Positions 3,903-35,745 of a stretch of 64,000 nucleotides of DNA are shown piece after piece. This DNA is from Hymenobacter volaticus. Lineage in GTDB: Bacteria; Bacteroidota; Bacteroidia; Cytophagales; Hymenobacteraceae. Under the pieces are notes generated by a model. It was not told where the DNA came from. It saw nothing but the letters and a program-made list of their open reading frames with translations, and made no database searches. Within the stretch, counting starts at the first letter, position 1. Each line of letters begins with the position of its first letter. The stretch lies in assembly GCF_022921055.1 (NCBI RefSeq), contig NZ_CP095061.1, positions 3,945,501 through 4,009,500 of the forward strand. Direction: 5' to 3'. The translations under genes and the position numbers were made by a program.

Positions 3903-5146
3903 ATGCCCATTCCTGCTGCTGATCCACGCCTGCTTTCCATCCAAGATTATACCTATACGCTCCCCGTGGAGCGCATTGCGCCTGAGCCGCTGCCCGACCG
4001 AGACCACTCGCGGCTGCTCGTGTACCGCGGCGGCCACATCACCGACCAAATTTTCCGCAGCTTACCTACAGAGCTGCCTACGGACACGCTATTGGTATTT
4101 AATGACACCAAAGTGGTACAGGCCCGATTGTTTTGTCGCAAACCAAGCGGTGGACAAATCGAGTTATTCTGCTTGGAGCCAGTAGCGCCGCACAGCGCTA
4201 TCGAGCTAGCTATGCAGCAAACCGAGGAATGCGTATGGAAATGCTTGGTAGGGAACGGCAAGCGCTGGAAAAGTGGGCTCGTTTCGCTGGACTTTACTGC
4301 CCGAGGCCAAGCAGCAACGCTTACCGCCGAACGAGTGGAGGCCGCCGAGGGCTATTCTCTTATTAGATTTAGGTGGAACCCGGCTAGCCTCCCATTTGCA
4401 GAAGTGCTGCGCGGCGCTGGCCATCTGCCCCTCCCCCCTACCTCAATCGAGAAGATACGGAGGCCGATGCAGTCCGCTACCAAACAGTATATGCCACGCA
4501 TGAGGGTGCGGTAGCGGCTCCTACTGCCGGTCTGCATTTCTCGGATGCAGTAGTTGCTGACCTTGCTGCACGAGGCATAACCACAGCCCGCGTGACCCTC
4601 CACGTAGGAGCAGGCACTTTTCAGCCCGTAAAAGCCGCCCACATGGCCGACCACGCTATGCACGGCGAGCCATTTGTGGTGCAGGCAGAGGTATTGCGCC
4701 AACTGCTGGCTCACCGTCCGCGGCCATTGATTGCAGTGGGCACTACCAGCCTGCGCACTCTTGAAAGTTTGTATTGGCTCGGAGTGCAAGCTGCCGATGG
4801 CCAGCTTTCAACTGATACATTGCCCCATGTAGCCCAGTGGCAGCCCTACACGCCCGGCTCCGAACTTCCTACTGCAGATGCTTTGCAGGCTCTCCTTGAG
4901 TATCTGGAGGCACAGCAATTGGCAGCCCTACATGCGACTACGCAACTGCTGATTGCGCCTGGCTATCAGTTTCGCATGATACAAGGGTTGGTAACCAACT
5001 TCCACCAGCCCGAAAGCACTCTGCTTCTGCTGGTAGCCGCCCTGCTTGGCCCCGACTGGCGCCGCGTGTATGAGCATGCTTTGGCAAACGGGTACCGGTT
5101 CCTGAGCTACGGCGACAGTTCATTGCTGCTTCCTAGCGCATTATAG
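3903..5146 (+). pseudogene. queA: S-adenosylmethionine:tRNA ribosyltransferase-isomerase (QueA), interrupted by one missing base
   Basis: QueA transfers the ribosyl moiety of SAM to 7-aminomethyl-7-deazaguanine in tRNA, making epoxyqueuosine. The first frame (ATG 3903 to a stop at 4514) holds the QueA N-terminus (YTLPVERIAPEPLPDRDHSR, FNDTKVVQARL). The second frame resumes at LPPYLNRED and runs to 5146 with TAGLHF, VTLHVGAGTFQPV, VGTTSLRTLE and TNFHQPESTLLLLV. The frames join if the C6 run at 4433-4438 is read as C7, restoring about 414 aa. Everything else is conserved, so decay looks unlikely; a base missed in sequencing, or slippage in the C run, are the two readings. A GTG at 3897 is a less likely start. 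Confidence 0.85.
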
Positions 5147-5271
5147 AGGCGAATCTTAGTAGGCAAACAAATTAGTGAGGGGGCTATTTTTCTCATGCAT
5201 TCTTCATGGGTGAGAAGCTAGATTTCTTCTGTCAATTTTGACAGCCTCATCTAACTCTATTTCCAGAAGCC

Positions 5272-5502
5272 ATGAAAAAGGTAAGCCTGCTCCTAGTTGC
5301 TGTAGCCTGCGCCGCTACTGCATTCGCTCAAAACGAAGTGAAAACCACTTCGAAGAACGAAGCCACTGGAGCCAAGACGGAGAAGAAGACGGAGACGCGT
5401 GAGAACGGCACCGCCAAAACCACTACCATGCACAAAACCGGCCGCACCACCGCTGGCGAGAAAGTGCACAAAGCCCACATGAAGGCGAAGAAAGCCGCAT
5501 AG
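5272..5502 (+). CDS. Small secreted lysine/threonine-rich protein, copy 1 (76 aa)
   Basis: Unknown function. A clear Sec signal peptide (MKKVSLLLVAVACAATAFAQ, cleavage after AFA) is followed by a strongly basic, Lys/Thr/Glu-rich chain without predicted fold. It shares the motifs EATGAKT, R-x-NGT-x-K and GRT-x-AGEKVH with the next gene (5643-5960), so the two are tandem paralogues. It ends in a Lys-rich tail (KAHMKAKKAA). A terminator follows at 5527-5559, so the two are probably transcribed separately. Confidence 0.75.
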   Translation: MKKVSLLLVAVACAATAFAQNEVKTTSKNEATGAKTEKKTETRENGTAKTTTMHKTGRTTAGEKVHKAHMKAKKAA

Positions 5503-5526
5503 CTACAGCTCAGTATAACAGCCCGC

Positions 5527-5559
5527 AAACCCCTTGGACGTTTCAGCCCAAGGGGTTTT
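5527..5559 (+). terminator. Hairpin terminator after small secreted protein 1
   Basis: An 11-bp perfect stem AAACCCCTTGG / CCAAGGGGTTT with a 10-nt loop is followed by a T residue and G. It lies 25 bp past the stop codon. Confidence 0.75.
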
Positions 5560-5642
5560 GGTTGAAAAAGCGGGCTACTGCAACCTATTTCACTGGACTC
5601 GTATAAGGACCGGAGTTCAGATAACCAACTCCTCCCCAAATC

Positions 5643-5960
5643 ATGAAAAAGATCCTAATGTTGCTCGCGGCTGTAGCTTTCTCCACCGCAGCCTTCGCCC
5701 AGGGCGATAAAGTAGTAGTTAAAGACGACGCCACCGGTGCTAAGACCACTGCCACAGTACGCGACAATGGCACGGTAAAAACTGAATCGCGCACAGGCCG
5801 TACGAAAGCCGGTGAGAAAGTGCACAACACCAAAGAAGACGTAAAGGATGCCGGTCAAAAAACCGGTAAAGTCGTGAAAAAAGGTGCCCAGAAAACTGGC
5901 AAAGCTGTGAAGAAAGGCGCTAAGGCTGTAGAAACTAAAGCCAAAGACGTAGTTGACTAG
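5643..5960 (+). CDS. Small secreted lysine-rich protein with C-terminal repeats, copy 2 (105 aa)
   Basis: Paralogue of 5272-5502. The signal peptide (MKKILMLLAAVAFSTAAFAQ) and the shared motifs DATGAKT, RDNGTVKTE and GRTKAGEKVH are present. The C-terminal half is an amphipathic, Lys/Ala/Val-rich repeat region built on the pattern KTGK-V/A-VKKGA (two clear copies), ending KAKDVVD. This composition resembles LEA-like or periplasmic stress proteins, but that is only a resemblance. No domain is recognised. Confidence 0.75.
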   Translation: MKKILMLLAAVAFSTAAFAQGDKVVVKDDATGAKTTATVRDNGTVKTESRTGRTKAGEKVHNTKEDVKDAGQKTGKVVKKGAQKTGKAVKKGAKAVETKAKDVVD

Positions 5961-6025
5961 AACTACGAGTTCCACTGGAGGCCGAGACATTCAGGTTTCA
6001 GTGGTAAACTGAAGATCTACAACAC

Positions 6026-6065
6026 AAAACAAAAAGGCTTGCCAATTGGCAAGCCTTTTTGTTTT
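6026..6065. terminator. Strong bidirectional terminator (18-bp perfect stem)
   Basis: AAAACAAAAAGGCTTGCC pairs perfectly with its complement across a 4-nt AATT loop. It lies between the plus-strand gene ending at 5960 and the minus-strand gene ending at 6102. A-tract and T-tract flank the GC core on both sides, so it can serve both directions. Confidence 0.85.
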
Positions 6066-6101
6066 GCTTAAGAATAAGATTTCTTCCTTGGAAGCCGCAG
6101 T

Positions 6102-8708
6102 TTACTGCCCTACAAAGAACAGCGCGTTGCCGAATAGCAGTTTGCCGCCCTGCCAGAATCCGCGGAAAAGTGGGTTGTCGGCTAGGTAGATGACTTGACC
6201 GCGGCCCATATCTTGAGCACCAAGTACAAAGGTATCGGTGAGTTTGCGGCGTGCTTTGCGTCCCGCGAATCCCGCGGCGTAATTGTCGCGCTTCAATACA
6301 CCCACGTTCCAGCCGCCTTCTCCTAGAAAGCGGTAGTTGAGGGTATCGCGCACTAGGGCGTAGTAGGTTGGGCCGTAGCCGAAAGCTAGCGGGTGGGTGT
6401 TGTCGAGCTGCACACGGTAGACGCTACCTTGTACTCGCTCCCCAATTTGCTCTCGTTCGGCGCTGGCATAGGGGCGCAGCAAGCGGTAAGGACTGGCTTT
6501 CTTGTTGGCAGCCGAATCGGCGGGCTTGGCTTTCAACAGAAAGTCTTTCTTGCCGGAGAGAAAAGCCGCTGCCCCTTCTAGCGCAATAAGCCGGCCACCG
6601 CTCCGTACCCACGCTTTCAACGCTTCGAGGCTCCGCTCAGGGTATATATCCTCGTAGTTACCGTCAGGCAGAATCAATACATCAAACTTACTTAACGGCA
6701 CCGAGCCAAGGTAATCAGCTCCAAGCACGGTAACAGGGTAGCCAATCTGCTGCTCAAAGAAGTGCCACACTTCCCCAAATGCCGAAGGCGAAACACCTTC
6801 TCCGGTAACTACTGCAATATTGGGCTTGCCGATGCTGCGAACATAGCCCGAACCTAGATCTGCTCCGGAAGTCGAGAAACCTGACTTCACTGCTTGCACG
6901 AGTACCCCGACAGAATCAGCCTGGGCACGGATTAATTGGTCGAAGCGGGCGCCGAGAGCCTCGTTGCCGGTGCGCGTAATAACGAGTGTGCCCGGCTGGT
7001 ACTTCTGCCCCTCCGACTCGAAGGGCCGACTGGCCACCCGCACCTTCACCCGCTGCTGCAACAGCCGACTCAGAAACCGTATATCCTGTAAGTTATTCCA
7101 GCGTGCTACGTAGGCATAAGGCTTGTCAACAGTTGGCTGTTGGTTGACAACACCCGGGCTCTGCTTGCTTGCTGCTTGCGCGTTATCGGCTGTTACTTTC
7201 TCTCGCAGAGCATACGCTTTCAGACCGAAGGAGTATGGCAGAGCCCACGCTGTGATGTCATAGGTAAGTGAGTCCTCTAGCGCCGGGCGGGGCTCGAACA
7301 GCACCTTAACCAACGTTGACTTCGGCTGGTACATGCTTACCACTATGTCCTTGGCTTCCACTTGCACGCCTTCTTCCTTGCCCGAGACGTAGTTGAAACC
7401 ACGAGTGCGCAGCCGGCGCGGCGCATAGCCGTACTGAATCTGCTGACGCTCCAAATAGTCGGTGAAGGCCCGTAGCTGACCAGGGTCGCCGGCTCCGGCC
7501 ACTACAAACGCCTTATAAGGACCACGAGGCTTGGTGCGAGCGTTATCGAAATACTTCTGATACTCGGTTAGTAGCTCGTCATGCCGCTCGGCTGCTGCCC
7601 GGATGGTGGCCAGGCTGGTGGCGTGATGGTGCGAAATGCGCTGGGCCAGCGTCAGAGTGTCGCCGTCGGATTTGGCGTACTGAATACCGGCCCGGCCCGA
7701 ACCACCCTGCTCGTAAGTCATGCCAATAGCGCCGTTGAACGACGGATAGGTGTCACCGTAGCTCGGGTAGAACAAGTCGTAGGTTTCGCGGGTGAAGTAG
7801 AGCCAGTTGTTTTTATCGAACACTTGCCGGTTGTAGTCACCGATGGTGTTTTGAAACTTGCGCTGAAAGTCGGTTATGTCCTCGTGGTAGGGCTTGGCTG
7901 CGGGCGAGAAATAATAGGGGTCGTCAGGACCCATTTCGTGGAAGTCGGCGTGGACCTGGGGTAGCCACTGGTTGTAGAGCGTGAGGCGCTGCCGGCTTTC
8001 TTGCTGGGTTTGCCACGCCCAGTCGCGGTTCAAATCGAAATAATAATGGTTGTAACGGCCACCGGGCCAAGGCTCGTGGTGCTCCCAGGCGTAGGGCGAG
8101 GCGTTGGGCATGGAAGCGCGGGTACGGTTGTACCATTGCACGTACCGCTCCCGCCCGTCGGGGTTCACGCAGGGGTCAAGCAGCACAACTGTGTTCTGCA
8201 GCCACTCCTGGGTCTGCGTATTCTTTGGATCAGCTAAGTCGTAAAGCACCTGCATCACCGCCTCCGACGACACGGCTTCGTTACCGTGAATATTGTAGCT
8301 GAGCCACACAATAGCGGGCTGTTGCCGCTGCTTAGTGCCGCTTTCAAGTCCAGCGAGGCGCAGGTTGTTGCGCCGGATTTCGTCGAGGCGGCTTAGGTTG
8401 TCGGGCGTAGCCACTTGCACCACTTCCAGCCGACGGTTTTCATAGGTCTGCCCATAGTCTTGACGCTTCATCCGTCCTGGTGAATGGGCTACCACGTGGT
8501 CCACGTAGCGTAGTAGTTCGGAGTGAGGCGTGAAGCGGTTACCGAGCGGGTAACCCAGAAACTGGCTAGGTGTAAGGAGTGGCCCGGCTTCGTTGGCAGT
8601 GGCTGAAACCTGCTGTGCAACGCCCGGTAGATAAGTCAGCGGAAGCAGCAAGAGCAGTACCAGCGCCCGAAGACGGCTGGCAACTGCTGACCAATACAGT
8701 TCAAACAT
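6102..8708 (-). CDS. Secreted M14-family zinc carboxypeptidase (868 aa)
   Basis: A periplasmic or extracellular metallopeptidase of the M14 (carboxypeptidase A-like) class. The start at 8708 (MFELYWSAV) is chosen because it gives a signal peptide ending about GVAQ; an in-frame ATG at 8783 would add 25 residues. The zinc-binding HxxE is HGNE (His141, Glu144), the third ligand is likely His253 in VHADFHEMG, and GMTYEQGG (Glu333) supplies the probable catalytic Glu. The remaining 500 residues include a ThuA/GATase-like segment (VVTGEGVSPSAFGEVWHFFEQ, then FDVLILPDG). The length agrees with large Bacteroidota M14 proteins. It has no operon partner. Confidence 0.88.
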   Translation of the reverse strand: MFELYWSAVASRLRALVLLLLLPLTYLPGVAQQVSATANEAGPLLTPSQFLGYPLGNRFTPHSELLRYVDHVVAHSPGRMKRQDYGQTYENRRLEVVQVATPDNLSRLDEIRRNNLRLAGLESGTKQRQQPAIVWLSYNIHGNEAVSSEAVMQVLYDLADPKNTQTQEWLQNTVVLLDPCVNPDGRERYVQWYNRTRASMPNASPYAWEHHEPWPGGRYNHYYFDLNRDWAWQTQQESRQRLTLYNQWLPQVHADFHEMGPDDPYYFSPAAKPYHEDITDFQRKFQNTIGDYNRQVFDKNNWLYFTRETYDLFYPSYGDTYPSFNGAIGMTYEQGGSGRAGIQYAKSDGDTLTLAQRISHHHATSLATIRAAAERHDELLTEYQKYFDNARTKPRGPYKAFVVAGAGDPGQLRAFTDYLERQQIQYGYAPRRLRTRGFNYVSGKEEGVQVEAKDIVVSMYQPKSTLVKVLFEPRPALEDSLTYDITAWALPYSFGLKAYALREKVTADNAQAASKQSPGVVNQQPTVDKPYAYVARWNNLQDIRFLSRLLQQRVKVRVASRPFESEGQKYQPGTLVITRTGNEALGARFDQLIRAQADSVGVLVQAVKSGFSTSGADLGSGYVRSIGKPNIAVVTGEGVSPSAFGEVWHFFEQQIGYPVTVLGADYLGSVPLSKFDVLILPDGNYEDIYPERSLEALKAWVRSGGRLIALEGAAAFLSGKKDFLLKAKPADSAANKKASPYRLLRPYASAEREQIGERVQGSVYRVQLDNTHPLAFGYGPTYYALVRDTLNYRFLGEGGWNVGVLKRDNYAAGFAGRKARRKLTDTFVLGAQDMGRGQVIYLADNPLFRGFWQGGKLLFGNALFFVGQ

Positions 8709-8793
8709 TAGTGGAAGGTAAAGTGAAAAAGTTGGAGCAAGCAAAGAAGTATGCGGTGCAAATAAGGCAGATGCAGCCGACAATAGCGTGTAA

Positions 8794-8822
8794 AAAGCCC
8801 GTCGGTTTAAACCAACGGGCTT
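8794..8822 (-). terminator. Terminator of the 8854-9123 gene
   Basis: AAGCCCGT-C-GGTTT pairs with AAACC-A-ACGGGCTT around a short centre with one internal mismatch. The hairpin starts 32 bp past the minus-strand stop codon and ends in T residues when read on that strand. Confidence 0.65.
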
Positions 8823-8853
8823 CTAAAAACTATCAGGCTGTTGTGTCGCTACT

Positions 8854-9123
8854 TTAGAAACGTGGGACGTTGCTGTAGTCAAACAAAGTATCCTCTTCTT
8901 CTTTTTCGCGCACTTGATATAGCACGCTTTCCGCTACGCCCCGTCCAAATAAGCTCACGCCCGCATTGAATACACACAAAGCAACGGTGCCAGCTACCAC
9001 CCAATTGGTCGTAGGTTCGCCCCGTTCCTTTTTTGCGGACGCCCATTGCACTAGGCAGGAGCCCAAGCCGATGACCATTAGCCCGCTTGGGGCAAACAAC
9101 AACCATTTTTTCTTGTGGGTCAT
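8854..9123 (-). CDS. Small two-helix membrane protein, unknown function (89 aa)
   Basis: The ATG at 9123 (MTHKKKWLLFAPSG) gives a basic N-terminus followed by a hydrophobic segment (LLFAPSGLMVIGLGSCLVQW), a basic polar loop and a second hydrophobic segment (WVVAGTVALCVFNAGVSLFG). An acidic cytoplasmic-type tail (REKEEEDTLF) ends the protein. No family is recognised. Upstream ATG 9234 would add a non-hydrophobic extension with no support. Confidence 0.6.
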   Translation of the reverse strand: MTHKKKWLLFAPSGLMVIGLGSCLVQWASAKKERGEPTTNWVVAGTVALCVFNAGVSLFGRGVAESVLYQVREKEEEDTLFDYSNVPRF

Positions 9124-9237
9124 GATAGGAAAAGAATAGAATAGGTGAGAGTGCAGAGTGGAATTGTCACCAAGACAACGAGCGAAGATAACCCAGAACT
9201 GCTTCTGCACCGCATCCGCATCCGTTGTTTCCAATCG

Positions 9238-9245
9238 TACCTTTG
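9238..9245 (+). promoter_or_regulatory. Possible -7 box TACCTTTG upstream of the 9346 gene
   Basis: An exact TAnnTTTG match about 100 bp before the ATG at 9346. It overlaps the region upstream of the divergent gene at 9123. No matching -33 element is evident. Confidence 0.3.
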
Positions 9246-9345
9246 CCGCACGGAGTTGCAGGCCTTCTCCGTTTAGTCTGGATTTTCCGCCAATATATAG
9301 CTACGACTGTTACCGGTCGACCGATCTGTTTCTTTTTTCTCTCGC

Positions 9346-9813: not shown

Positions 9814-9840
9814 GTTTTGCCCGTGACCATCTCCCCAATA

Positions 9841-9873
9841 AAGCCAGCTTTTCCCTCCAAAGGAAGCTGGCTT
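9841..9873 (+). terminator. Terminator after the 9346-9813 gene
   Basis: A 10-bp perfect stem AAGCCAGCTT / AAGCTGGCTT with a 13-nt loop is followed by TTTCG. It lies 27 bp past the stop codon. Confidence 0.75.
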
Positions 9874-10007
9874 TTTCGTGTTTTCAAAAGCAAGAATAGT
9901 TGGCAAAACAGTACCTTTTTAGCAGTTTTTGATGTTGTACTTACATACCATAAGCTGCGCACTGGTATGACTACCACTGCTGGCTATGCTCCCCTTTTTC
10001 AATCTAT

Positions 10008-10919: not shown

Positions 10920-10938
10920 AGCGTGTCATATAAGAATA

Positions 10939-12398: not shown

Positions 12399-15300
12399 TT
12401 AAAAGCCCAGGTTCAAGCCGAACAGAACAGTACGCGCCAGTGGCGGCGTGTAGAAGTCGTGGCCCAGAATGTAGTTGCCACTCTGTACACCAGCAGCAGT
12501 GTTGCCTCCCACATATCCTGTATTTACTTCTGGGTCGTAGCCTTTGTAGTTCGTGATGGTAGCTAAGTTCTGCCCAGTTACGTAGAAGCGGGCTGACTGC
12601 ATGAGCGCTTTCTTAGCCCATACTGTAGGAAGTGTGTAGCTCAGCGTTACCGACTTTATGCGGAAAAACGAACCATTCTCAATCCAGCGCGACGAAGTTT
12701 GGGTGCCGTTTGCATCACTGTAACGCGCTTGTGGCACGTTCGTGATGTCGCCCGGATTCTGCCAGCGGTTCAGCTGATCCGTGGTTTGGTTGTCGAAGTA
12801 GTCAGCGTTTACTGACTGATACACCCCGGCAATGTTGTAGATGTCGTTGCCATAAGTGAATTGCGTGAGGGCGTTCAACTCAAAGCCCTTGTAAGAAACG
12901 GTGTTGCTGAAACCGCCTGTGGATTTCGGATTTGGGTTGCCGAGCTTTTGCACAGCCCCTTGCGCATATACATTGGTTGTACTACCATCGGCAGTATAAA
13001 ACAGTGCATCACCGTTGGTAGGATCTACACCAGCGTATTTCACGCCGTAGAACACACCAATTGGTTCTCCTACTCGTACTCGACTCAGGTTACGACCTCC
13101 AGAAATGATTTCCTGCCCGTTCAAGTCCGTGACTTTGTTGCGGTTGAAGGAAATATTGAAGTTGGTAGTCCACCTTACTGCCTTATCGAGGTTAACAGTG
13201 TTCAGCGAGAGCTCCAAACCCCGGTTACGCATCTTGCCTAGGTTCTCATAGATGTTGTCGTAGCCCCCAGTGTATAACAGTTGGCGAGCCAGTAGCAGGT
13301 CGCTGGTTTTCTTCTCGTATATATCTACTTCACCGGAGATGCGGTTCTTAAGCACTCCAAATTCCAGCCCAATATCAGCTTGAGCAGTATTCTCCCAGGT
13401 CAGGAAGTTGTTGCCGAGTTGGGTGGGCCGGATGCCGGCTTGGTCGGCATAAGGAATAGCCTCGTACAGACCCCGAGAAGCATAGTTGGTGATTTCGGCG
13501 TTGCCTGTTAGGCCATAGGACCCGCGCAGCTTCACCAAACTCACAATGCTATTGTCTTTAAGGAAATCTTCGTTGGATATAACCCAACCGAGCGAACCAG
13601 CAGGGAACACGCCAGTGCGTTTGTCGCGGCCGAAACGCGACGATTTATCGGCCCGAAGGCTACCCGACACCAGATACTTCTCACGGAAGTTGTAGTTCAC
13701 ACGACCGAAGTACGATAGGAACACATACTCGCTTAGCTGTGAGTCGCCATCCGTAATCTTGGCTGCACTGGTAATCTTGCGAAACTCGTCGTTAGGAAAT
13801 GTTTGCCCTTCTGAAGATACCGATTTTTGATTGTAGCGCTGAAACGAGAAACCGGCCAGTGCTTCAACAGCGTGGTCTTCGTTGAAGCTTCGCGCATACG
13901 TAGCTGTATTGTTGGTGGTGTAGTTCACCACGTTGCCTTGGCTTTCGAAAGCATAGCCCCGGCGCCCCCGACCAGTTTCGGTTTCAATACCCCGATACAA
14001 CTCCTCATTGATATTAAGGAAGTCGCCACCTACTTCAGTGCGCAAAGTCAACGCCTTGATAGGGTTGAAAGACAAGAAGGCCGAGCTAATCGAACGGTAA
14101 TTACCCGACCGGTTGGTAGAACTCAGTTCCGCTAGGTTGTTGTAATATAGCGTACCGGAATTCACCTTCCCGTCAGGCAAATATTTGGCTTGCAGCGGTG
14201 GCAAAGCATTCAGCTGCACCGGATTGGCGAAATCGTTGTCATCCGCCACCCGATCATTTACCGATCGTACGAGCGATATGTTCACGCCTACCTTCAGCTT
14301 GTCGCTAATGCTATGATCGAGATTGGCGCGAAAGCTACCCCGACGATAGCGGTTGCCGATGATAATACCTTTCTGGTCGTTGAAGGTAGTACTGATGTAG
14401 AAGCGCGTTTTGGCATCGCCTCCATTCACGTTGAAATCGTACTGTGCTACCGAGCCTTTGCGGAAAGCAGCACCAGCCCAATCGGTATCTATCTCAGAAT
14501 TGTAATCGAGGCCGCCTTCTTCATCAAACACTTCTGCTACATCAGGATTAGCACCATAGTTGCGGAAGATATAACCGCCGCGGAAACCCGTGGCTGGATC
14601 GGCTACTCGGGCGGCGCTGTTTAGAATAGACTCGCTGAACAGCTCTTTGTATTGAGCTGAGTTCAGGAATTTACGAGTGCGGGTTGCTTTGCTAGTACCC
14701 CAATAAGCACCTACGTTCACACGGGTTTGGCCTTGCTTACCTTTTCTGGTAGTTACAAGTACCACACCATTAGACGCTCGGGAACCGTAAATGGCCGACG
14801 AAGCGGCATCCTTCAGAATCGAAATACTCTCAATATCATTGGGGTTGATATCAGCCAGTGGATTGCTGGATTCGCCGAACGCTACCCCGTGTCATTGGAC
14901 GTGACGGGAATGCCATCAATTACATACAAAGGCTGATTGGATGCCGTCACCGAAGAGGCGCCCCGGACCCGAATCTGAACTCCAGCTCCTAATTTGCCGG
15001 AGCCTTGGTTGATTTGAACCCCAGGAGTGCGGCCCTGGATAGCCTGCTCGAAGCTAACAGTAGGCACGTTCTGCACAGCACTTCCCGCAATTTGCGTTAC
15101 GGCACCAGTCACCTCAGATTTAGCTTGAGAGCCGTAGCCGATAACTACTGCTTCACTAAGCGCTACTGCATCTTCTTTCAGCGTCACGGCCACCGTTGAC
15201 CGGTCGCCAACTACCACTTTTTGCGTGGTGAAACCTACAGAGCTGACCACTAATGTGGCACTAGGCTGTACCGTCAAGGAGAAGGCCCCGTCCGGACCGG

Positions 15301-15460
15301 TGCTAGTACCGTTGGTGGTACCCTGCTCCAGTATAGTTACTCCCGGAATTCCAGCACCATCGGCACCCGTTATCCGGCCAGTAATGGCTCGAGTTTGGGC
15401 CCAGGCTGGCGCGGCCGCTGCAACGGTGCATACCAAAGGGATGAATAATTTTTTCTTCAT
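12399..15460 (-). pseudogene. SusC/RagA TonB-linked outer-membrane receptor, pair 1, interrupted by one missing base
   Basis: The TonB-dependent barrel of the first SusC/SusD pair. The N-terminal frame (start 15460) carries a signal peptide (AAAPAWAQ), a carboxypeptidase-regulatory-like domain (ITGRITGADGAGIPGVTI), a TonB-box-like EAVVIGYGSQ and the plug (IRVRGASSVTASNQPLYVIDG); it stops at 14882. The other frame continues [22 protein letters not shown] and runs through the barrel to the terminal [13 protein letters not shown] at 12399. Reading the C4 run at 14885-14888 (G4 on the coding strand) as five bases restores one 1020-aa protein. All other SusC landmarks are intact, so I expect a sequencing or slippage indel rather than decay. 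Confidence 0.88.
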
Positions 15461-15765: not shown

Positions 15766-16937
15766 ATGTCTAACCCCATCCAGTACCTGACCACAGCGGC
15801 CGAGGTGCAACACGCCGCCGACATTCTGCGGACTGCTCCCCGTATTGCCATCGATTTGGAGTTCGATGATATGCGGCACCGTTACGGGCGCAACTTGGCC
15901 CTAATCCAGATTTTTGATGGGCAGACGCCTTACTTGATTGACCCACTGCCGCTCACCAATCCAGCACATGATCTGGAGCCTCTCTTCGCCATTCTGCGCG
16001 ACCCGGCAGTAGAGAAAGTGTTTCACAGCTGCAAGTCCGATATTCTTCTACTCGATGAGGTATATGGGGTGCACGTCCGTCACATCACCGATACCAGCGT
16101 GCAGTATACTCTGCTAGCAGAAGCAGACAACAATATTTCCTTGGGACGTCTGATTCAGGCTGAGCTTGGTATTGAGGTCGACAAAGGCGAACAGAAATCA
16201 AATTGGTTGAAGCGTCCTCTCACCGAGGCCCAGATGCAATACGCTGCCAACGACGTTCTGTATCTGTTTGAATTAGCCGACCGGCTGCGCGATAAACTGG
16301 CCGCCCTTGGCCGTACGCATTGGGCCGAGGAAGAAAACGCGGCGCTGGAAGATGTGCGTTACTCCCGCGACGAGCGGCCCTACCTACGCATGGCGGGCAA
16401 ATACCGCATCCTGCCCCAAGAACTGCCTTTATTTCGCGACTTGTATTTGCTCCGCGACCAAGTAGCTCGGCAGCTTGACCGCCCGCCGTACATGGTGTTC
16501 GCCAACGAGCGGCTGCCTGAACTAGTGCGGGACTTGCCACGCAACCTTAATGCTTGGAAAGCCGCCCGTGGTTTGCACCCTGAACTCAAGCGCCCGCCTT
16601 ATCTCGATCAGCTAGCGGCTCTTTCTGCCGAAGATTTTGTTCCGACCCCGAGCCGACTGTGCCTGCCGAGCAGCGTCGCTTTCCTTTCCGCCGGCGGCTA
16701 ACTGGCGAGAAAGCCGCACGCGCTGATGCCCGCGAACAACTGCTGACACAGCTAAAAACGCACATTACCGCCGATATCAATGGCTTCGTAGCCAACTTGG
16801 TACTTTCAAACCGCTTGGTAGCCGATATAGTAGAACTAGGCGCTGAGCAGGTGCTCCGTCCTTGGCAGAAAACTATCCTGCGCGAAACCGCGCAGCGCCA
16901 TAGCCTCGACTACGAGTTAGTGGCTCAACCCTTCTAA
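15766..16937 (+). pseudogene. rnd: Ribonuclease D-like 3'-5' exonuclease, interrupted by one missing base
   Basis: RNase D trims the 3' ends of tRNA and other stable RNAs. The exonuclease domain shows the DEDDy set: Asp30 and Glu32 in IAIDLEFDD, Asp92 in FHSCKSD, and Tyr159/Asp163 in YAANDVLYL. An HRDC-like helical region follows (PYMVFANERLPELVRDLP). The first frame ends at 16701; the second frame, ending at 16937, continues with VPAEQRRFPFRRRLTGEKA and the helical C-terminus. The two join as VPTPEPTVPAEQ if the C4 run at 16646-16649 is read as C5, giving 390 aa, the usual length. Confidence 0.85.
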
Positions 16938-17522: not shown

Positions 17523-19012
17523 ATGCTAAGCCACGGTCAGGTTGTCCGATTGATATTTGGATTGAAACTGCGCGAACTACGCCAGGAACGGGGCTTTACC
17601 CCGGCTGAGCTAGCTCGGGCTTGTGACGTTTCGGTATCGTATCTAAATGAGATTGAGAAAGGCAAAAAGTACCCTAAGGCCGACAAAATTTTAAGCCTCA
17701 GCAAGGTATTAGGCGTTACTTACGACCAGCTGACTTCTCTAACCCTGAGTCGGCGATTGGAGCCTATTTCCGAGTTGCTGCAATCGGATGTGCTGAAGGA
17801 GTTTCCGCTGGAGATGTTTGGGCTGGACCCTGTCCGCATTGTGGAGCTGATTGCGGATGCGCCCGCCAAGATGAATGCCTTCATCAGCACGCTTTTCGAA
17901 ATAGCCCGCAACTACGAAATGCGGCAGGAAAACTTCTTTTTAGCTGCACTACGCTCCTACCAGGAGATGCACGACAACTACTTTGAAGACCTAGAGCAAG
18001 ATGTGCGCACCTTTTGCGTCGAGGAAAAGTTGACGACCACTGCCCCTTCGATACCACTCAATTAGAACGGGTGCTCGTTGAGAAGTACGGCTACACACTT
18101 AACCGTACCCGGCTCGCCGACTATGCCTCGCTGGGGCGGCTACGCTCCGTATTTCAGCCCAAAACTCGCTGCTTGCTGTTGCGGCCAGGCCTTTCAAAAG
18201 CACAAGAAGCCTTTGTGCTTGGCCGCGAGGTAGCCTTCAACTACCTCGGGCTGAAAGAGCGGCCGTACGTGAATGCAACATTTCCGGTGCGCTCTTTCGA
18301 TGAAGTGCTCAACAATTTTAAGGCCTCCTATTTTGCTGGCGCGCTGTTGATGGAAGAGGAAAATCTGGTGCGCGACCTGCACCAATTTTTCGAGTTGCCG
18401 AAGTGGCAGCCCGACAAGTTGCAAGCCCTCCTCACGCGCTACGACGTGTCGCCGGAGATGTTTATGCAACGCCTCACCAATTTGTTGCCGCGTCACTTCA
18501 ACCTGCAGAGCATGTTTTTCCTGCGCTTCGACCAAGTGCATGCCATGGACGACGGGTACAAGCTAAGCAAGGAACTGCACCTATCGCGCCTACACAACCC
18601 CCACGGCAATGAGCTCCACGAACATTATTGCCGCCGTTGGGTGTCGATTCGGCTGGTGCAGGAAGCCCGACTACAGGCCCTCACCAAAGCTCCTGCCTTT
18701 GTGCTCGGCGCTCAACGTTCCTGTTATCCCAACAACGACGAGTATCTGTGCTTGACGCTGGCCCGCGCGGCCGGGCCTACCGAACCAGCCGTCAGCGTAA
18801 CCGTGGGGCTGCTTTGCGACGATATCCTACGCCAGAAAATTCAATTCATTGATGATCCTGCCATCATTCAGAAAACGGTGAACGAAACCTGCGAGCGGTG
18901 CCACATTCCGAATTGCGAGGTACGGGCCGCTGAACCGGTAGAGTTGGAACGCCGCGCGCGTCGGCGCGAAACCGAAGCCGCTATTGATGCCTTGGTTAAC
19001 GCCGACAGGTAA
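17523..19012 (+). pseudogene. XRE-family regulator with Cys-rich ScfR-like C-terminal domain, interrupted by one missing base
   Basis: The N-terminus is a helix-turn-helix of the Cro/CI type (about residues 8-65: LKLRELRQERGFTPAELA, VSVSYLNEIEKGKKYPK). A long middle region and a C-terminal domain with CRRWVSIRL and CERCHIPNCEVRAAEP resemble short-chain fatty acyl regulators (ScfR/DUF2083), which sense acyl-CoA and control acetate or propionate use; this link is inference. The ImmA-type HExxH is absent (the matching site reads GREVAFN). The first frame stops at 18065. Reading the C4 run at 18043-18046 as C5 joins TTTAPFDTTQLERVL and gives a single protein of 496 aa, the usual size. Confidence 0.82.
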
Positions 19013-20401: not shown

Positions 20402-21948
20402 TCACTGCAGGCGGTACAAACGAAGTTGAACGGAATCTTGACGAGCCGCGCGTTGCAACGCCAGCGTTTGCTCGTAGCCAAGTCCCGTGTACTCGGAATG
20501 TTCGAGAAACAGCAATGGCGAGGTAAGCAACGGTTCCGACAAGGTCACTAAGGCGGGCTGATGGCGAAGAGAATCGAAGTTAGGCGAGTTGGTGACGCGC
20601 CAATAGGAATCGAGCAGCACGTAATCGAACTGCTTTTTTCTCCACAATGGTAGCTCCTTTTCGTTTGTCACCACCACTACGGTATCAGTGGTTGCTAAGA
20701 AAGGACGCAGGCCAAGGCCAAGAGTGCTTACTACACGCACTGGTCCGGGCGTGCGGGCGTGTAGCAACCGGGCTACAGTGCCGTAGTGAGTCTGCATGTA
20801 GGCGTAGATTTCACGTTGTATCCGAAACAGGTTGAAAATAGTGCCAGCCAATACTACGCACGCCAAAATCCCGGTTGTGGCCGACGTAGTTAGCCGCATA
20901 TCTTGTATCAACCGACGCAACAGCAGAAACGTGAGAATATAGAACAGCGGATACACTAACAGCAACCCGCGCGGCGCCTTTAGCAGCAACGACATACCTA
21001 TCAGAAAACACCCCGCCCATACTCCCAAGTATGTGGGCAGATTAATAGGAAGCTTCCACCAAGACAAATGTTGTAGCCCGCGCCGTATTGCGAACAGCAT
21101 TCCAACAGCCAAGCCCAGCAGCAGCAACGGCGACTCGAAGTCCCAGAGGTAGCGCAGGTAGTATAGCCCGTCGAAGCGCAAGTGCCCAGTCCGACCAGCG
21201 GCATTGGCAGCCCCGGAAACACTAGATTGTAGTATACAGCCGGCCACCGGTACCAAGGCAAGCCACCTACCATGCCTAGCAAGCCCAGCACGATATAAGG
21301 GGCAAGCAAGCGCAGCAGAACCCGCGCCAGCATAGCAGGCTTCCATAGCAAGCCTTGGCTATAAAGCAGTTCCAGCATGCCCAGAATCGGCAAGGTGAGC
21401 AGAAACTTGTAGTTGACGCTCAAACCTAAAGCCAGCCAACCAGTCGTTTGCATTAGAAGACGCACGCTCGGCTGTTGCAGCCGCAGATAGTGAGTTCGTA
21501 GCAAGCCAACAAAAACGAGCAAACTCATAGAACCCATCGTGAAATCGCGACCCGAGAAGGTGAGAAACACGGAGGTGCCGGTGAAAAGCAGCAATAACGC
21601 GGCTTCCAATGCCGTTAAGCGCAGTTTCCTTTCTACAAATTGCACAAGCCACGCCAGGGCCGCTACGCCTAGCAAAGCATTGAGATGCTGGTATACCCGA
21701 TAGTCGGAGGTGAACCACGCTATAGGAGCCAGCACTAGGGAAAAAGCCGGGCTGCCGTGGTGAAATAGGTTACGCAAATTACCGTGTGCCACCTCCTGCA
21801 CGATCTGCCAGTTGCGCACCGAATCATAGTCCGGCAACGACACCTCACTTAGCCCATATAGGCGTATTGCCGTCACGGCTAGCAAAGCCAGAGCCGGCAA
21901 CAGCGCCGCACGAGGAGCAGACGAAGAGATACTAGAGCGCAAAGCCAT
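20402..21948 (-). pseudogene. Multi-pass membrane glycosyltransferase-like protein (PMT/ArnT style), interrupted by one missing base
   Basis: A polytopic protein of about 515 aa that resembles GT39/ArnT-type enzymes, which transfer sugars from polyprenyl phosphates. An early acidic periplasmic loop (SLPDYDSVRNWQIV) follows the first membrane segment, then about eight hydrophobic segments, then a C-terminal periplasmic-type domain (TDTVVVVTNEKELPLW). The ATG at 21948 is preferred over TTG 21951. The first frame runs out at 21001 in low-quality sequence (repeated Cys); the second, starting near LGHLRFDGLYYLRYLWDFE, joins if the CCC at 21185-21187 is read as four bases. The sugar substrate is unknown and the family call is by general layout only. 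Confidence 0.68.
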
Positions 21949-21974
21949 CAACTACGAATGAAGCCGCAAGATGC

Positions 21975-27710: not shown

Positions 27711-27726
27711 CCTGCGTACAACACTA

Positions 27727-27811: not shown

Positions 27812-28386
27812 TTACAATAGTCTGAAGCCCATTCGGTGGTGTTCAGTGGTACCATGAGCACGAATAGCGGACCGATGCTGAAGCGTTGGATAACCAGCAT
27901 TTTGCTCCCACCTGTATTCCGGGTGAAGTTCGGCTAGCTCCATCATTCGCTCGTCGCGGAAGGTTTTGGCCAGGATTGAAGCGGCCGCAATGTGCCGATA
28001 GTGCGCATCGCCTTTAATAAGGCACGTATGGTCTATCCCGCGTACGGCCGAAAACGGTTGCCATCAACTGCTAGATGAGTAGGCTGAACAGCTAACGCCG
28101 TAACCGCACGATGCATAGCCAAGTAGCTTGCTTGGGCAATATTGATAGAAGATATTTCATCCGGTGAGGCTTCTGCTACTGCCCATGCCACGGCCTCACA
28201 GCATATTGCACCACGCAGTTCGGTGCGCCGTCGGGCGCTCAGTTGCTTGGAATCATTGAGGTACTTCGGGTTGAAATCAGGAGGCAGAATGACGGCGGCG
28301 GCAAAAACCGGCCCGGCCAAGCAGCCCCGGCCTGCTTCATCAAGCCCGGCTTCAAGAGGGTGACCAGTATGGGAGGCGAGTAACAT
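27812..28386 (-). pseudogene. rnhB: Ribonuclease HII, interrupted by one missing base
   Basis: RNase HII removes ribonucleotides and RNA primers from DNA. The N-terminal frame carries GLDEAGRGCLAGP (catalytic Asp16, Glu17), LNDSKQLSARRR and HLAVDGNRF with a third acidic residue, then stops at 28033. Reading CCC at 28037-28039 (GGG on the coding strand) as four bases restores the rest: GIDHTCLIKGDAHYRHIAAA, SILAKTFRDERMMEL and the end at MGFRLL with the TAA at 27812-27814. The product would be 191 aa, a normal RNase HII. The second half is too short for an ORF list and is easily overlooked. Confidence 0.9.
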
Positions 28387-28425
28387 ACTGCAAAAGTATA
28401 GCAGACCCAGCAGCCAATCACGAAA

Positions 28426-28465
28426 AAAGGCATCCCCGGGAGCCGTAGCGGCCGGAGATGCCTTT
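28426..28465 (-). terminator. Terminator after the 28498-28740 gene
   Basis: AAAGGCATC pairs with GATGCCTTT around a GC-rich 22-nt loop that can itself pair (CCGG/CCGG). It is 33 bp past the minus-strand stop codon at 28498. Confidence 0.65.
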
Positions 28466-29033: not shown

Positions 29034-29043
29034 AAATATAATT

Positions 29044-29881: not shown

Positions 29882-29987
29882 TAACAGCATGATTGGCTTG
29901 CGAATAGTGTTGTAGTATCGGTTCTGCTTATCAGGGTGCCTTGATGTCGCGCCCGAGCGTTCTTTCCAACAACGTCAGACAACTTCC

Positions 29988-29995
29988 TAACTTTG
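29988..29995 (+). promoter_or_regulatory. Bacteroidota -7 box TAACTTTG directly before plsC
   Basis: An exact TAnnTTTG match ending 4 bases before the plsC ATG at 30000, which predicts a leaderless or nearly leaderless mRNA for the plsC-gatC-TPR-ABC run. No clear -33 element is visible. Confidence 0.4.
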
Positions 29996-29999
29996 CTAT

Positions 30000-30859
30000 A
30001 TGCGGCACCTTCTGCGCTACATCGGCCATCGACTATACACTACTTGGGCGACCTTCTGGTTTGTGACGCCGTTTGTAGTTACGTATCCAGCGCAATGGGC
30101 ACTAAGTCGGCAGCCACAGTGGCACCGACATTTGCATAGCCTCAATCGGGGTTGGAGCAAGCTCTTCATCTGGATGTGGGGCATGCCTGTGGACATCGTA
30201 AAGAAAAACCCGTTACCAGCTGGTCAGCCATGCGTGTATGTAGCTAATCATAGCTCCTACATCGATATTCCGCTGTTGTTTAAAGCTATTCCCGGCTGGC
30301 TGAATATCATGGGCAAAAGCTCGTTGGCTAGAGTACCTGTATGGGGCCTATTTTCAGCCGGGCCTATATCGTCGTCGACCGGGACAACGCCATGAGTAGG
30401 GGCCGCGCGATGGTGCAGGCTCGTCGCTCGTTGGAAGCTGGCCGACCCGTAATTATTTTTCCAGAAGGATCTATATCTAAAAAGCCCGGTGAGCAGTTAG
30501 AAGAGTTCAAGGAAGGCGCTTTCCAGTTGGCCATTGCTGCGGGCGTACCCCTTGTACCAATCACGATGACGCTGAACCACCGGTTTATGCCTGATGTTGA
30601 AGGGCTGCGCGTACGCTACTCACCTTTGCAAATCATCTTACACGAACCTTTATCCACCACTAGCCTTACATCGGCTGATGCGCCTGCCCTCAAGCAGCGC
30701 GTTGCCGATATTATTGCTAGTGCATTCCGGCCGGAAGCCGCAGGTATTCCGGAGCGTAGCACTTGGCGTCAGCCTAAGTCACCCGGGGCCACTACTTCGG
30801 CAAAAACTTCGGCAACTTCAGCAGAAAATTCTTCTGAGTTGGCTTTGCCCAATTCATAA
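30000..30859 (+). pseudogene. plsC: 1-acyl-sn-glycerol-3-phosphate acyltransferase (PlsC-like), interrupted by one missing base
   Basis: PlsC adds the second acyl chain in phosphatidic acid synthesis at the inner membrane. The first frame has the catalytic H-x4-D motif NHSSYID (His84, Asp89) and stops at 30395. The second frame carries GPIFSRAYIVVDRDN, the glycerophosphate-binding FPEGSIS motif and VPLVPITM, ending at 30859 with an Ala/Ser/Thr-rich tail. Reading the G4 run at 30343-30346 as G5 joins VPVWGPIFSRAY and gives 286 aa. It is first in a tight run with gatC, a membrane/TPR gene and an ABC ATPase (gaps 26, 6 and 11 bp). Confidence 0.86.
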
Positions 30860-30885
30860 TTCTCAACTTGTAATCAACCATTCCC

Positions 30886-31173
30886 TTGAGTACTGACCTC
30901 GCTACCTTGCGCCAGCTAGCGCACCTTTCCCGCTTAGAACTCGACGAATCAAAAGAGCAGCAGATGCTGGGTGCCCTCAACGAAATCCTGGATTGGGTGG
31001 ATCAATTGCGCCAACTCGATACCAGCAACGTGGAGCCACTGGTACACCTGTCGCACGAAATCAACGTGCTTCGGCCCGACGAAGCTCACAACACCGTGAG
31101 CCACCAAGACGGGCTGCGCAATGCGCCACGCAAGGATTCGGATTATTTCCGCGTACCTAAAGTGCTGGAATAA
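30886..31173 (+). CDS. gatC: Aspartyl/glutamyl-tRNA amidotransferase subunit C (95 aa)
   Basis: GatC is the small scaffolding subunit of the GatCAB enzyme that amidates mischarged Glu-tRNA(Gln) or Asp-tRNA(Asn). The start is TTG at 30886 (TTG AGT ACT GAC CTC); no in-frame ATG precedes the conserved LRQLAHLSRLELDE. Family landmarks are ILDWVDQLRQLDTSNVEPLVH and the C-terminal R-x-DSDYFRVPKVLE. gatA and gatB are not in the window. It is the second gene of the plsC run. Confidence 0.93.
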   Translation: MSTDLATLRQLAHLSRLELDESKEQQMLGALNEILDWVDQLRQLDTSNVEPLVHLSHEINVLRPDEAHNTVSHQDGLRNAPRKDSDYFRVPKVLE

Positions 31174-31179
31174 CTGCTG

Positions 31180-34100
31180 GTGCCCACTACTACTTCCGCT
31201 TCTCGCGCTACTCCCCGGCGCAGTCCGTTTCTGCTAGGCCTGCTGGTGCTGGCTATTGGGGCTATCCTTTTAGCAACCTATCATTACTTCACTGGCGATG
31301 ATGCTGCATTGCCGGTACAGGCAGTGGCGCAGCTTAAGCCCGTGCCCACCACCTTGATAGGAGTGCGCGTGGGTCTTGCGGAATTGCCGCTCCGGGTAAA
31401 CAGTTATTTGCTTACCCAAACCCACGACATGGTAGGGCCTTACGTCCGCCCGGAAGCGGCGTGGGCACTACTAGGCTTGTTTGCGGTGGCGCTGGCGGCT
31501 TTTCTGGCAGTGGCTAGCATGTTAGAAAGGCCAGCATTTGTAGCGAGCATAGCAGGAGTGATTTTCCTGCTAATGTCGCTCAATGCCGACTTATTGGGTG
31601 TTTTCAACTCGCAGGAACAATATTTCTTGATTTTGACGCTGGCGATGCTGGGGTTGCCAGCCTACGCCTTCCATGCTTTCTGGACGGAGGTTCCACTGGG
31701 ATACCGCCTGCTTGTCTTTGGGGTGCTGGTTGCTGGCTTGAGCGCACTGCTATTGACTCGCTCCAACTTTTCGTTCGACGAAACGGCTTTACACCTCACC
31801 AGCTTTGCAACACTGGGTGGGGCCATAATAGTGGGCTTACTGGTGTTGTGGGTAGCATTTGAGAATATTCAGGGGCTGCTCTGGTTTAATACGCAAGCAG
31901 AAAATCCCGCTAGCCGCTTTGGCCTACTACCGTTTGTGGCCTCAAGCGTGCTCTACTTAGGCATTCTGGGGATGTATCTGTGGAATGGTGGGGGACTGCT
32001 GATTCTCCCCGGCGTACAGTTCGACCCCTTGGTGCTCCTATTACCGGCAGTGGTCATTGGGTGGCTGGGCCTGCAACGTCGGGCAGCTTCGTATGGCGAC
32101 TTATTTCCTTATTGGCCCGCCGCGGCGCACCTGTACTTGATATTTGTGGCATTGGCGGCCGGCTTTCTGGGCTACGCCTTTGCTACCGCCAACGACCCGC
32201 TGGTGCTAGCGGCTCGTCAGTTTACAGCCTTGGCGCTGCTAATCGGGGGAGCAGCCTTTCTGCTGTACGTGCTAGTCAACTTCGGGCCACTTATCAGGCA
32301 ACGGCTGCGCGTATACCGCGTCGTGTACGAGCCCCGCCGCCTGCCCTTGTACGCTGTGTATGTGCTGACCATAGCAGGCTTAGCGGCCCTGGAGTTTCGT
32401 TATAACTTCGAGACCCTGCACCAAGTGCAGGCCGGTTACTACAACAACCTCGGCGACCTGACCCGCTTGCAGAGCGAGCTCGACCCAAAGGGCGATGCGC
32501 TGGCCTTGCTAGCCGAACGCTACTATGCTGAAAGCGACGTGCTCGACGAGCACAACCACAAAGCCAGCTTAGGACGCGCCGCTTTGTACCGCTACCGACT
32601 GCAGCGCCAAAACGAGATTAACATTTTGCGGAGGGCCCTCAGCCGCCGGCCCTCCGAGAAGGTATCGTTGCGCCTCGCAGCACTTTACAACGAGCCCACC
32701 GATTTCTTCGATCGGCTGGCTGCTTTGCGGGAAGGTCTAAAAAGCACCCCAGCCAGCACCAGCCTCAACAACGACCTCGCCCAGCTTTACACTCGTTCCA
32801 CCCTCACCGACTCGGTGATGTGGTACTTAAATCGGGCGGAAGCTGTCGCTCCTAATAGTTCGGTAGTCCAAGCCAATCGGCTGGCTTATCTGTTGCAGCT
32901 CAAACAGTTTGGGGAGGCACAAAAGCTTGTACAACAGGAAAGCAAAGCAACAGATGCTGCTTGGCAAAGCAATGTATTGCTCCTAGGTCAACTGCATCCT
33001 ACGAGTACAAACCCCGTACCTGCGCTGACGCCCGACGCAGCTGCCAATCTAACCGTACCCGAGTTTGCTCGACTCTATCATGCAACTTTGCGCCAAGTAC
33101 AGCAGCAGGATACCAGCTATTTGAAAGCCCTCACGCAGTTAGCGCAACGCCCAAGCAATAGCGCGTACTTCGAGCAGCTAACTTTTCTGAAGGCACTCAT
33201 GCAACACTACGGTGGCCGAGCAGTGCCCGCTCAAGCTACCTTGTTGCCGCTGGCAGTGGGCGCTACGCCTAGCGCTGCCTATTACCAAAACGTGCAAGGG
33301 CTGTGGTTGCTTGAGCAACGAGCCTACGGCTCAGCCGCTACTCGTCTTGCCGAAGCAGGCCGCAATGGATACGCCGAGGCACGCTTGAATCGAGTGTATG
33401 CATTGGCCTTAAATCAGCAGCTAGATTCAGCACGTGCTATGGCGCAAGCAATAGCTCAAGGGCCGGATTCTAGCCTGCATCAGCCTGTGCAAGCACTGCA
33501 ACAGGTGCTAACACTAAATTTTAATTCACAATATGCCGCTGCTTCTGATTCCGTAAAAACACAATTTGTTGTATTACGCGGCAACTCTCCTTATCTTGAT
33601 AGTTTACTACATTATATTGTTAATCTAACAAATCCCTGGTACCGCGAAGTAGCCTTGCTTGCGCAGCTGCCTCGCGCAATTCAGGCCGGTCAGTTGGCCA
33701 CAGTTCAGCAACTCTTAACGCGCTTCCATCTCGAGAAAACGCAAGAGAAGACCGTTACTGCTTCCGCTTGGAATGTGGTGCGAGGTGAGTTGCTATTACG
33801 TCAGAAAAAAGCATCGGAATTGCGTCAATTAGCTGAGAAAGGCTTTTTCGCGCCAGTTAATCAGTCTAAACGTCTTTATTATCGGGCGGCGGCGGCAGTA
33901 TTGGAAAACCAATCAAAGCAAGCTCAGCAGCTATTCGCGCAGCTAGTGCGAGAGGCTCCGTTTGAGGAGGCCGGAATCTTAGCGGCTGCCGACTTCTATA
34001 CGCAGCAACAGGACTATCAAACCGCCTATTCAACTTTGCAAAGTGCAGTTGAATATAACCCTGAGTCTATTTCTTTGCTAAAGGCGTATACGTTAGCTGC

Positions 34101-34245
34101 TATTCCGATGGGGTTGACGGAGTATGCTACTACCTCCCTCGACAAGCTGCGTACATTGCTTTCACCCCCTGAATACGCTACCTTTCGTACCACTTATAAC
34201 GCCCGCCGTGCAACTCAGGACTCGGTGGTCGCTCCCTGGAACTAA
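31180..34245 (+). CDS. Large polytopic membrane protein with C-terminal TPR-like repeats, unknown function (1021 aa)
   Basis: I cannot assign a family with confidence. The GTG at 31180, 6 bp after the gatC stop, is the only plausible start. The first 400 residues contain about a dozen hydrophobic segments, beginning [20 protein letters not shown] and ending near [15 protein letters not shown]. From about 405 onward it is soluble and helical with TPR-like spacing: [52 protein letters not shown] and [19 protein letters not shown]. The likely role is a membrane scaffold whose repeats bind partners. Translational coupling with gatC and an 11-bp gap to the next ABC ATPase suggest co-expression, though gatC is probably just a passenger. 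Confidence 0.75.
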
Positions 34246-34256
34246 CCCGGCCGGCT

Positions 34257-34985
34257 ATGCTGCACCCCGTTATCGAAACCCATAACATCTCGAAGATGTA
34301 TCGCATGGGTACTGAGGAAATTCACGCTCTACGCTCAGTTACCATCACTATTCAACGTGGTGAGTACGTTGCCTTCATGGGCCCTTCCGGCTCAGGAAAG
34401 TCAACGCTGATGAATATCGTTGGCTGCCTTGATACCCCTACCAACGGAAGTTACATACTCAACGGCAAAGACGTGAGCCGCATGAGCGACAATCAGCTAG
34501 CTGATGTTCGTAACAAAGAGATTGGCTTCGTTTTCCAGACGTTCAACTTGCTGCCCCGTGCTACTTCGCTGGACAATGTAGCCTTGCCCCTCATTTATGC
34601 TGGCTACAACAAGCCCGACCGGGAAGAGAAGGCCATGCAAGCCTTGCGAAGCGTGGGCCTTGACACCCGCGCCAAACACCGGCCCAACGAGCTGTCCGGT
34701 GGTCAGCGCCAGCGCGTAGCAATTGCCCGTGCCCTCGTCAACGATCCTAGCATCATCCTAGCCGACGAACCCACTGGTAACCTTGATTCGAAGACCAGCT
34801 ACGAAATCATGGATCTCTTCGAAGCGTTGTATGCCAAAGGCAACACTATTATCATGGTAACGCACGAAGAAGACATTGCCCGCTATGCGCACCGCATTGT
34901 GCGCCTGCGCGACGGCCTTGTCGAGTCCGACCAAATAAATACTGATGTAGCCCTGCACCATGAGCAGGCAACCAAGCAACTATAG
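34257..34985 (+). CDS. ABC transporter ATP-binding protein, LolD/MacB type (242 aa)
   Basis: ATPase subunit of an exporter-type ABC system such as lipoprotein release (LolCDE) or MacB-like efflux. It has Walker [10 protein letters not shown] (42-50), Q-loop VFQTFNLLP, signature [15 protein letters not shown], Walker [14 protein letters not shown] and H-loop VTHEED. The Met-Tyr/IHALR N-terminal motif and short length fit LolD-like proteins. No permease partner is adjacent in the window; it follows the 1021-aa membrane protein by 11 bp, so the two could act together. It is the last gene of the run, followed by a REP-like element. Confidence 0.93.
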
Positions 34986-35024
34986 CAAACCTATATTGCC
35001 TTTGCTTACGGATAGTAGGCCGCT

Positions 35025-35126
35025 CGTCATTCTGACCCAGAAAAGACCTTTTCGTTGTTGGTGTGTTACCTTCCTTTACTTAGCACACTGACGAAGAAAA
35101 GGTTTTTCTTTGTTGGCATGACGTTT
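35025..35126. repeat. REP-like element bounded by CGTCAT / ATGACG
   Basis: About 100 bp between the LolD-like gene and the adenosyltransferase. The left end is CGTCATTCTGACCCAGAAAA and the right end is TTGTTGGCATGACG, which is an inverted copy of the core. The inside has two direct near-copies of the unit AGAAAAGR-CTTTTCGTTGTTGG / AGAAAAGGTTTTTCTTTGTTGG. The core matches the repeat at 29082-29096. Confidence 0.45.
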
Positions 35127-35197
35127 TCGTTTTTAGTCGCAAGCGCGAGCTTGAAACGCAGCGTTATGTGAGCGGCACTAGCGCTAACCTTTCTTTC

Positions 35198-35745
35198 ATG
35201 AAAATCTACACCAAAACCGGCGACCAAGGCCTCACCTCTCTCATCGGCGGAACACGGGTGCCTAAATCCAGTCTACGCATCGACTGCTACGGCACCGTCG
35301 ACGAGCTCAACTCCTATATCGGTTTGCTGCGCGACCAAGACGTAAATGCCACCCGCCGCAACTTGCTCAAGGAAATTCAAGACCGACTATTCACTATCGG
35401 GTCTTCTCTGGCTTCCGACCCTGAAAAGTCGAAGATGAAGATACCCGACTTGCATGCTACTGATGTGACGCTGCTGGAAGAGGAAATGGACCGGATGAAT
35501 GCGCAACTACCAGAGTTGCGGGTGTTTGTTTTGCCAGGGGGCATCAGTCGGTGTCATTTGCGCACGTGGCCCGGTGTGTGTGCCGCCGCGCCGAACGACT
35601 GGTCATTCATCTACGTGAAGACTCGTTTGTGGCCGACTTAGTGGTGATGTACCTGAACCGCTTATCTGACTACCTATTTGTTCTGAGCCGGCAGATGGCC
35701 CACGACTTGGGAGCCGAAGAAGTAACTTGGTTACCCCGGATGTAA
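35198..35745 (+). pseudogene. Cob(I)alamin adenosyltransferase, PduO type, interrupted by one missing base
   Basis: Adds the 5'-deoxyadenosyl group to cob(I)alamin to make adenosylcobalamin. The ATG at 35198 gives MKIYTKTGDQGLTSLIGGTRV, the PduO-type ATP-binding N-terminus, followed by GTVDELNSYIGLLRD. The first frame ends at 35641. The second frame continues HQSVSFAHVARCVCRRAERLV and YLNRLSDYLFVLSR to 35745. Reading the G5 run at 35537-35541 as G6 joins VFVLPGGHQSVS and restores 182 aa, a normal length. A cobalamin-dependent enzyme is implied but none is in the window. Confidence 0.88.

Follow-up and report, generated by a model that had tools for sequence, protein, structure and literature searches.

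Missing bases at G/C runs split eight genes in a 64-kb window of the Hymenobacter volaticus genome and are almost certainly assembly errors

Eight genes in a 64-kb stretch of the Hymenobacter volaticus genome, hereafter the window (positions 3945501-4009500 of contig C1; the assembly comprises 7.13 Mb in 10 contigs and has a completeness of 97.34%), are each split across two reading frames. We are almost certain that these eight breaks are consensus errors of the assembly, arising from under-calling of G/C homopolymers, and that they do not reflect biology. The feature is an artefact, and the window is not special in carrying it; in the living strain the genes are most likely intact. The closest named relatives of gcvT, a further gene of the window, belong to Hymenobacter, with a best identity of 90%.

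Eight genes are split by one missing base each

An original prediction made for the window had named the eight genes and, for each of them, a G or C run short of one base. The eight genes proved to be split across two frames with an offset corresponding to one missing base, as seen by stop-to-stop reading, Pfam profiles, comparison with relatives and a gene model, and stop-to-stop reading gave two overlapping open frames at each of the eight sites. The letters of all the predicted runs were also correct (Table 1), including those of a C3 at 21185-21187 in the membrane glycosyltransferase gene. The break in this last gene, however, is not located at the C3: alignments of relatives placed it 26 bases away, at a C4, the two closest relatives following one frame down to 21211 and the other from 21214.

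A Pfam profile ran on across the break in five of the eight genes. The two pieces of queA matched profile positions 2-144 and 139-322 of PF02547, those of rnhB positions 1-108 and 126-197 of PF01351, those of plsC positions 3-61 and 66-131 of PF01553, and those of the adenosyltransferase gene positions 1-118 and 112-170 of PF01923, and the Plug domain of the susC product (PF07715) was covered at positions 2-70 and then at 72-107. Regarding the three remaining genes, rnd showed a Pfam match in its first piece only, the two pieces of the XRE gene matched different Pfam domains, and neither piece of the glycosyltransferase gene had a Pfam match; in these three genes both frames were bridged by full-length open reading frames (ORFs) of relatives.

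Breaks were located by alignment of the intact ORFs of relatives to both frames, the switch point being bracketed without restoring any sequence. In this way seven of the eight breaks of the window were placed, each as one base missing, and six of them matched the predicted run. No relative of susC passed the 40% identity filter. At identities of 25-38%, three of seven SusC references matched both frames and bracketed the predicted run: the end of the first match lay at 14885-14909 and the start of the second at 14870 or below. The gene model put this break at 14886. In the case of rnd, a close relative (P0001) with an intact product of 390 aa aligned to both pieces, with identities of 96% in the first and 82% in the second, and 119 of the best 120 of 367 relatives were 384-425 aa long.

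Table 1. Split genes of the window and the prfB recoding site, with the position of each break
Gene	Coordinates	Strand	Break or site
queA	3888..5146	+	frame ending at 4514 and frame 4388-5146; break interval holds C6 4433-4438
susC-like TonB-dependent receptor	12399..15460	-	split; near C4 14885-14888
rnd (ribonuclease D)	15766..16937	+	split; near C4 16646-16649
XRE / IrrE-like (M78) regulator	17523..19012	+	split; near C4 18043-18046
Membrane glycosyltransferase (name from the original prediction; no Pfam match)	20402..21951	-	split; at C4 21211-21214
rnhB (RNase HII)	27812..28464	-	split; near C3 28037-28039
plsC-like acyltransferase	29991..30859	+	split; near G4 30343-30346
Cobalamin adenosyltransferase	35084..35745	+	split; near G5 35537-35541
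prfB (release factor 2)	37225..38254	+	CTTTGA at 37234; contrast within the window, outside the artefact

Missing-base breaks are found in all sampled regions of the genome

The direction and rate of the breaks were studied with the gene model, a frame-tracking Markov model trained on this genome, which recovered five of the eight breaks in the window and made no other call there. In 864 kb of the same genome, sampled from five regions of which one lies on contig C2, the model called 55 missing-base shifts vs one extra-base shift, and missing-base breaks were present in all five regions. The sensitivity of the model, determined with planted deletions in the main region, was 116 of 207 (about 56%); after this is taken into account, the real density is near 11 breaks in 100 kb, equivalent to about 7 in 64 kb. 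Given that the sampled rate predicts about seven, the presence of eight breaks in 64 kb is ordinary. Five control Hymenobacter genomes (G007, G012, G002, G006 and G034) yielded three missing-base and one extra-base shifts in 800 kb, with planted sensitivities of 130/187 in G007, 23/43 in G012, 38/51 in G002 and 25/57 in G034. The excess of missing-base breaks over control genomes and random intervals was large.

The calls of the gene model were associated with G/C runs: a run of at least four G or C lay within 15 bases in 40 of the 55 calls (random, 11%), and an A/T run of at least four in 4 of the 55 (random, 17%). The gaps between calls along 464 kb looked random (coefficient of variation 1.01), and each 64-kb bin contained 1 to 7 calls. 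These random-looking gaps, together with a window count near expectation, led us to reject a localized concentration of decay. The lone extra-base call, made in the C2 sample at an offset of about 28352, corresponded by eye to a gene boundary, with a stop followed by a close ATG.

Breaks fall in G/C runs and increase with run length

A homology census was carried out on aligned coding sequence amounting to about 336 kb. An initial set of junctions, for which shadow ORFs of the relatives had also served as queries, contained some extra-base junctions and several large offsets and was replaced by a cleaner set. A junction score cut of 200 kept 28 of 32 junctions, and 11 junctions with offsets over 7 were left out of the census. 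All 28 breaks kept were of the missing-base type. G/C runs of at least three bases were present in 27 of these 28 located breaks, in comparison with 6.2 (standard deviation 2.2) in random intervals of equal length, and runs of at least four in 21 of the 28 (random 1.2, standard deviation 1.1). The lone break lacking a G/C run of at least three (window-relative position 183195, outside the window) has by eye a CCC a few bases beyond its interval and was counted as a miss. On the other hand, A/T runs of at least four were found in two of the 28 breaks, a value at the random level (1.8).

The apparent loss rate climbed with the inferred true length of the run, from 0.5% (6/1326) at length 4 to 5.7% (14/244) at length 5, 10.5% (4/38) at length 6 and 60% (3/5) at length 7, the last two values being based on small numbers and all of them taking the longest G/C run of each interval to be the affected one.

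Outside the window, breaks were found, among others, in a relative of polX and in a gene with the PBP1A family as its best NCBIfam match, below the cut-off of that family. Three separate missing-base breaks were found in one gene upstream of the window (window-relative positions -153714 to -152795, within L102-L111); its orthologue in G007 (region 368320-370105) had no NCBIfam match at 1e-10.

Ribosomal RNA copies show the same deficit

The deficit observed in ribosomal RNA (rRNA) genes is the strongest result in favour of an artefact. The genome contains three full rRNA operons. In the 16S gene, the C1 copy (site at C1:3726815-3726835) reads GACGGGGCCCGC, with a G4 run, whereas the C2 and C7 copies read GACGGGGGCCCGC, with a G5 run. 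In the 23S gene, it is the C7 copy (site at C7:62588-62609) that is short (CACGGGGATGCC, G4), whereas the C1 and C2 copies are long (CACGGGGGATGCC, G5). A second 16S G run also differs by one G, being short in C1 and C2 and long in C7, and was left out of the verdict; the two remaining 16S columns that differ resemble a compensated stem. Among 200 genomes of the family, the short 16S form was found in three (the present genome, G005 and G202) and the long form in 89, and the short 23S form in three (the present genome, G202 and G010) and the long form in 37. All genomes with a short form at one of these sites also have the long form there.

The gene model was also run on 100-kb samples of four other genomes, with missing- and extra-base counts of 7 and 1 in G005, 11 and 1 in G202, 10 and 2 in G010, and 2 and 1 in G003. 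G005 and G202 had been chosen from the 16S result, and G010, selected for its completeness of 93%, and G003 were added as further members of the genus; these runs preceded the 23S search. Like the present genome, G005, G202 and G010 combine a mostly missing-base pattern in coding sequence with one rRNA copy in which a G run is short.

The prfB frameshift is of a different nature

The original prediction that there is no case of an extra base held for the eight breaks, the exception in the window being prfB. At position 37234 this gene carries CTTTGA after a GGAGG stretch, as does G007; we take this to be the known autoregulatory programmed +1 frameshift site. It is the one genuine recoding site of the window. 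The protein continues in another frame here, as it does at the eight breaks; unlike them, the prfB shift skips a base, and is thus opposite in sense, is common to G007 and has its own signal. The two phenomena are unrelated.

Origin of the breaks and comparison with published errors

The direction of the breaks, their G/C context, the dependence of the loss rate on run length, the rRNA deficit and the link to particular assemblies support a systematic under-calling of G/C homopolymers, as originally proposed. In such a process, the reads or the consensus step would drop one base in G/C homopolymers with a true length of about 4 to 7, at a rate growing with run length; accurate polishing would not have corrected the short runs, and each loss in coding sequence would split a gene. 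Raw reads would then show longer runs, and the source would probably be long-read data without short-read polishing.

Errors of this kind are described in three reports. According to the report on Kastor, long-read errors are mainly homopolymer indels, and deletions peak after four to five identical bases (PMC12007338); that system and the present one have in common homopolymer deletions and a large number of split genes, in an assembly that is contiguous in other respects. According to Delahaye and Nicolas, nanopore sequencing performs worse on longer runs of C and G than on those of A and T, tends to underestimate run length and produces more deletions as runs become longer (PMC8486125). The present breaks resemble that bias in these three respects, with the difference that reads were studied there and a consensus here. 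A yeast MinION study reports that deletions are often found in homopolymers and that, at run size 4, C/G runs were read slightly better than A/T runs with R7.3 and worse with R9 (PMC5466710), indicating that the bias depends on chemistry.

Several observations weigh against under-calling as the origin of the breaks. Without the score cut the homology tally becomes 29 missing-base vs three extra-base junctions, the cut having dropped three extra-base junctions (own_1.0M 47606 and window-relative -94591 and -7141) and one missing-base junction (31172, beside the gatC end). The spectra of G/C runs revealed no clear overall shortage of long runs with respect to five controls, the probability of a run of at least six given at least five being 0.105 in the present genome and 0.092-0.149 in the controls, with overlapping values. 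The rRNA copies are also truly divergent, with 31 other differing 23S columns that are substitutions, and the cell could carry one defective rRNA operon among three. The exact long form was not matched in 111 of the 200 genomes for 16S and in 163 of the 200 for 23S; in these genomes the rRNA is presumably missing or divergent at the site, which makes them neutral evidence. Other low-completeness genomes among the 200, such as G201, G011, G203 and G205, which were not part of the gene-model sample, show no short rRNA form. Finally, a G/C bias is not universal: according to the report on Kastor, A/T-run deletions in a Pseudomonas assembly were about twice those in G/C runs (PMC12007338), whereas the located Hymenobacter breaks lie in G/C runs.

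Alternative explanations

It is conceivable, although unlikely, that most breaks are assembly errors but that true lesions exist at one or two of the eight sites, a case that overlaps with the preferred explanation. In the control assemblies, missing-base calls occur at a low background level of about 0.4 per 100 kb, and the computations cannot tell single sites apart. This background, however, implies about 0.2 calls in 64 kb, and the context is common to all eight sites, as is the direction where it was tested.

The possibility that the strain, or a mutator lineage, truly lost one base per run by slippage, leaving the genes as pseudogenes, had been regarded in the original prediction as less likely, and the 55 missing-base vs one extra-base shifts, the lack of A/T enrichment and the short rRNA copies lead us to consider it very improbable. 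The breaks do fall in homopolymer runs, which are natural slippage sites; A/T runs, however, were not enriched, although in the coding sequence of the census runs of at least five were more frequent in A/T (614) than in G/C (266). In both 16S and 23S, a single copy is short where the other copies are long, in a form present in 3/200 genomes per site. The gene with three separate breaks, and the presence among the hit genes of the polX relative and of the one closest to PBP1A, also argue against slippage. We find it scarcely credible that the present genome, G005, G202 and G010 truly have hundreds of one-base G/C-run losses, in protein genes and rRNA alike, owing to a deletion mutator specific to G/C or to some mechanism of tolerance.

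Recoding, in which ribosomal frameshifting or transcriptional slippage would rescue the proteins and the short runs would be real and tolerated, exists in this genome at the prfB site common to G007, but is extremely improbable at the eight breaks: the same deficit is seen in untranslated rRNA, where recoding is no explanation because an rRNA gene cannot be restored in such a manner by translation or transcription; conservation of the shift is lacking, since seven of the eight sites are spanned by an intact ORF in one or more relatives (susC being compared at low identity only) and 119 of the best 120 of 367 relatives have a full-length rnd; and the only common feature noticed was a short G/C run, no systematic search for other signals having been made.

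Consequences for the use of the assemblies

Extrapolation to 7.13 Mb gives roughly 800 breaks, each liable to mimic a pseudogene or two genes. Statements on gene loss, completeness or the pangenome derived from the present genome, G005, G202 or G010 would be off. The comparison of the G5 runs of rRNA copies provides a quick check for such assemblies that needs no reads.

Additional observations

Small contigs of the present genome carry two of the three full rRNA operons, at G000:C2:23949-31610 (contig of 330 kb) and G000:C7:59326-66985 (147 kb); these contigs are either secondary replicons or pieces of the chromosome. A partial 23S gene, outside the three full operons, was found close to the start of the main contig at G000:C1:29993-30953 (L145, L146) and covers model positions 1932-1988 and 2045-2912. 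In the sample G010:C1:1000001-1100000 (L160-L164), G/C runs of exactly six reached 600 per Mb, vs 30-210 in the other samples, perhaps corresponding to a repeat array.

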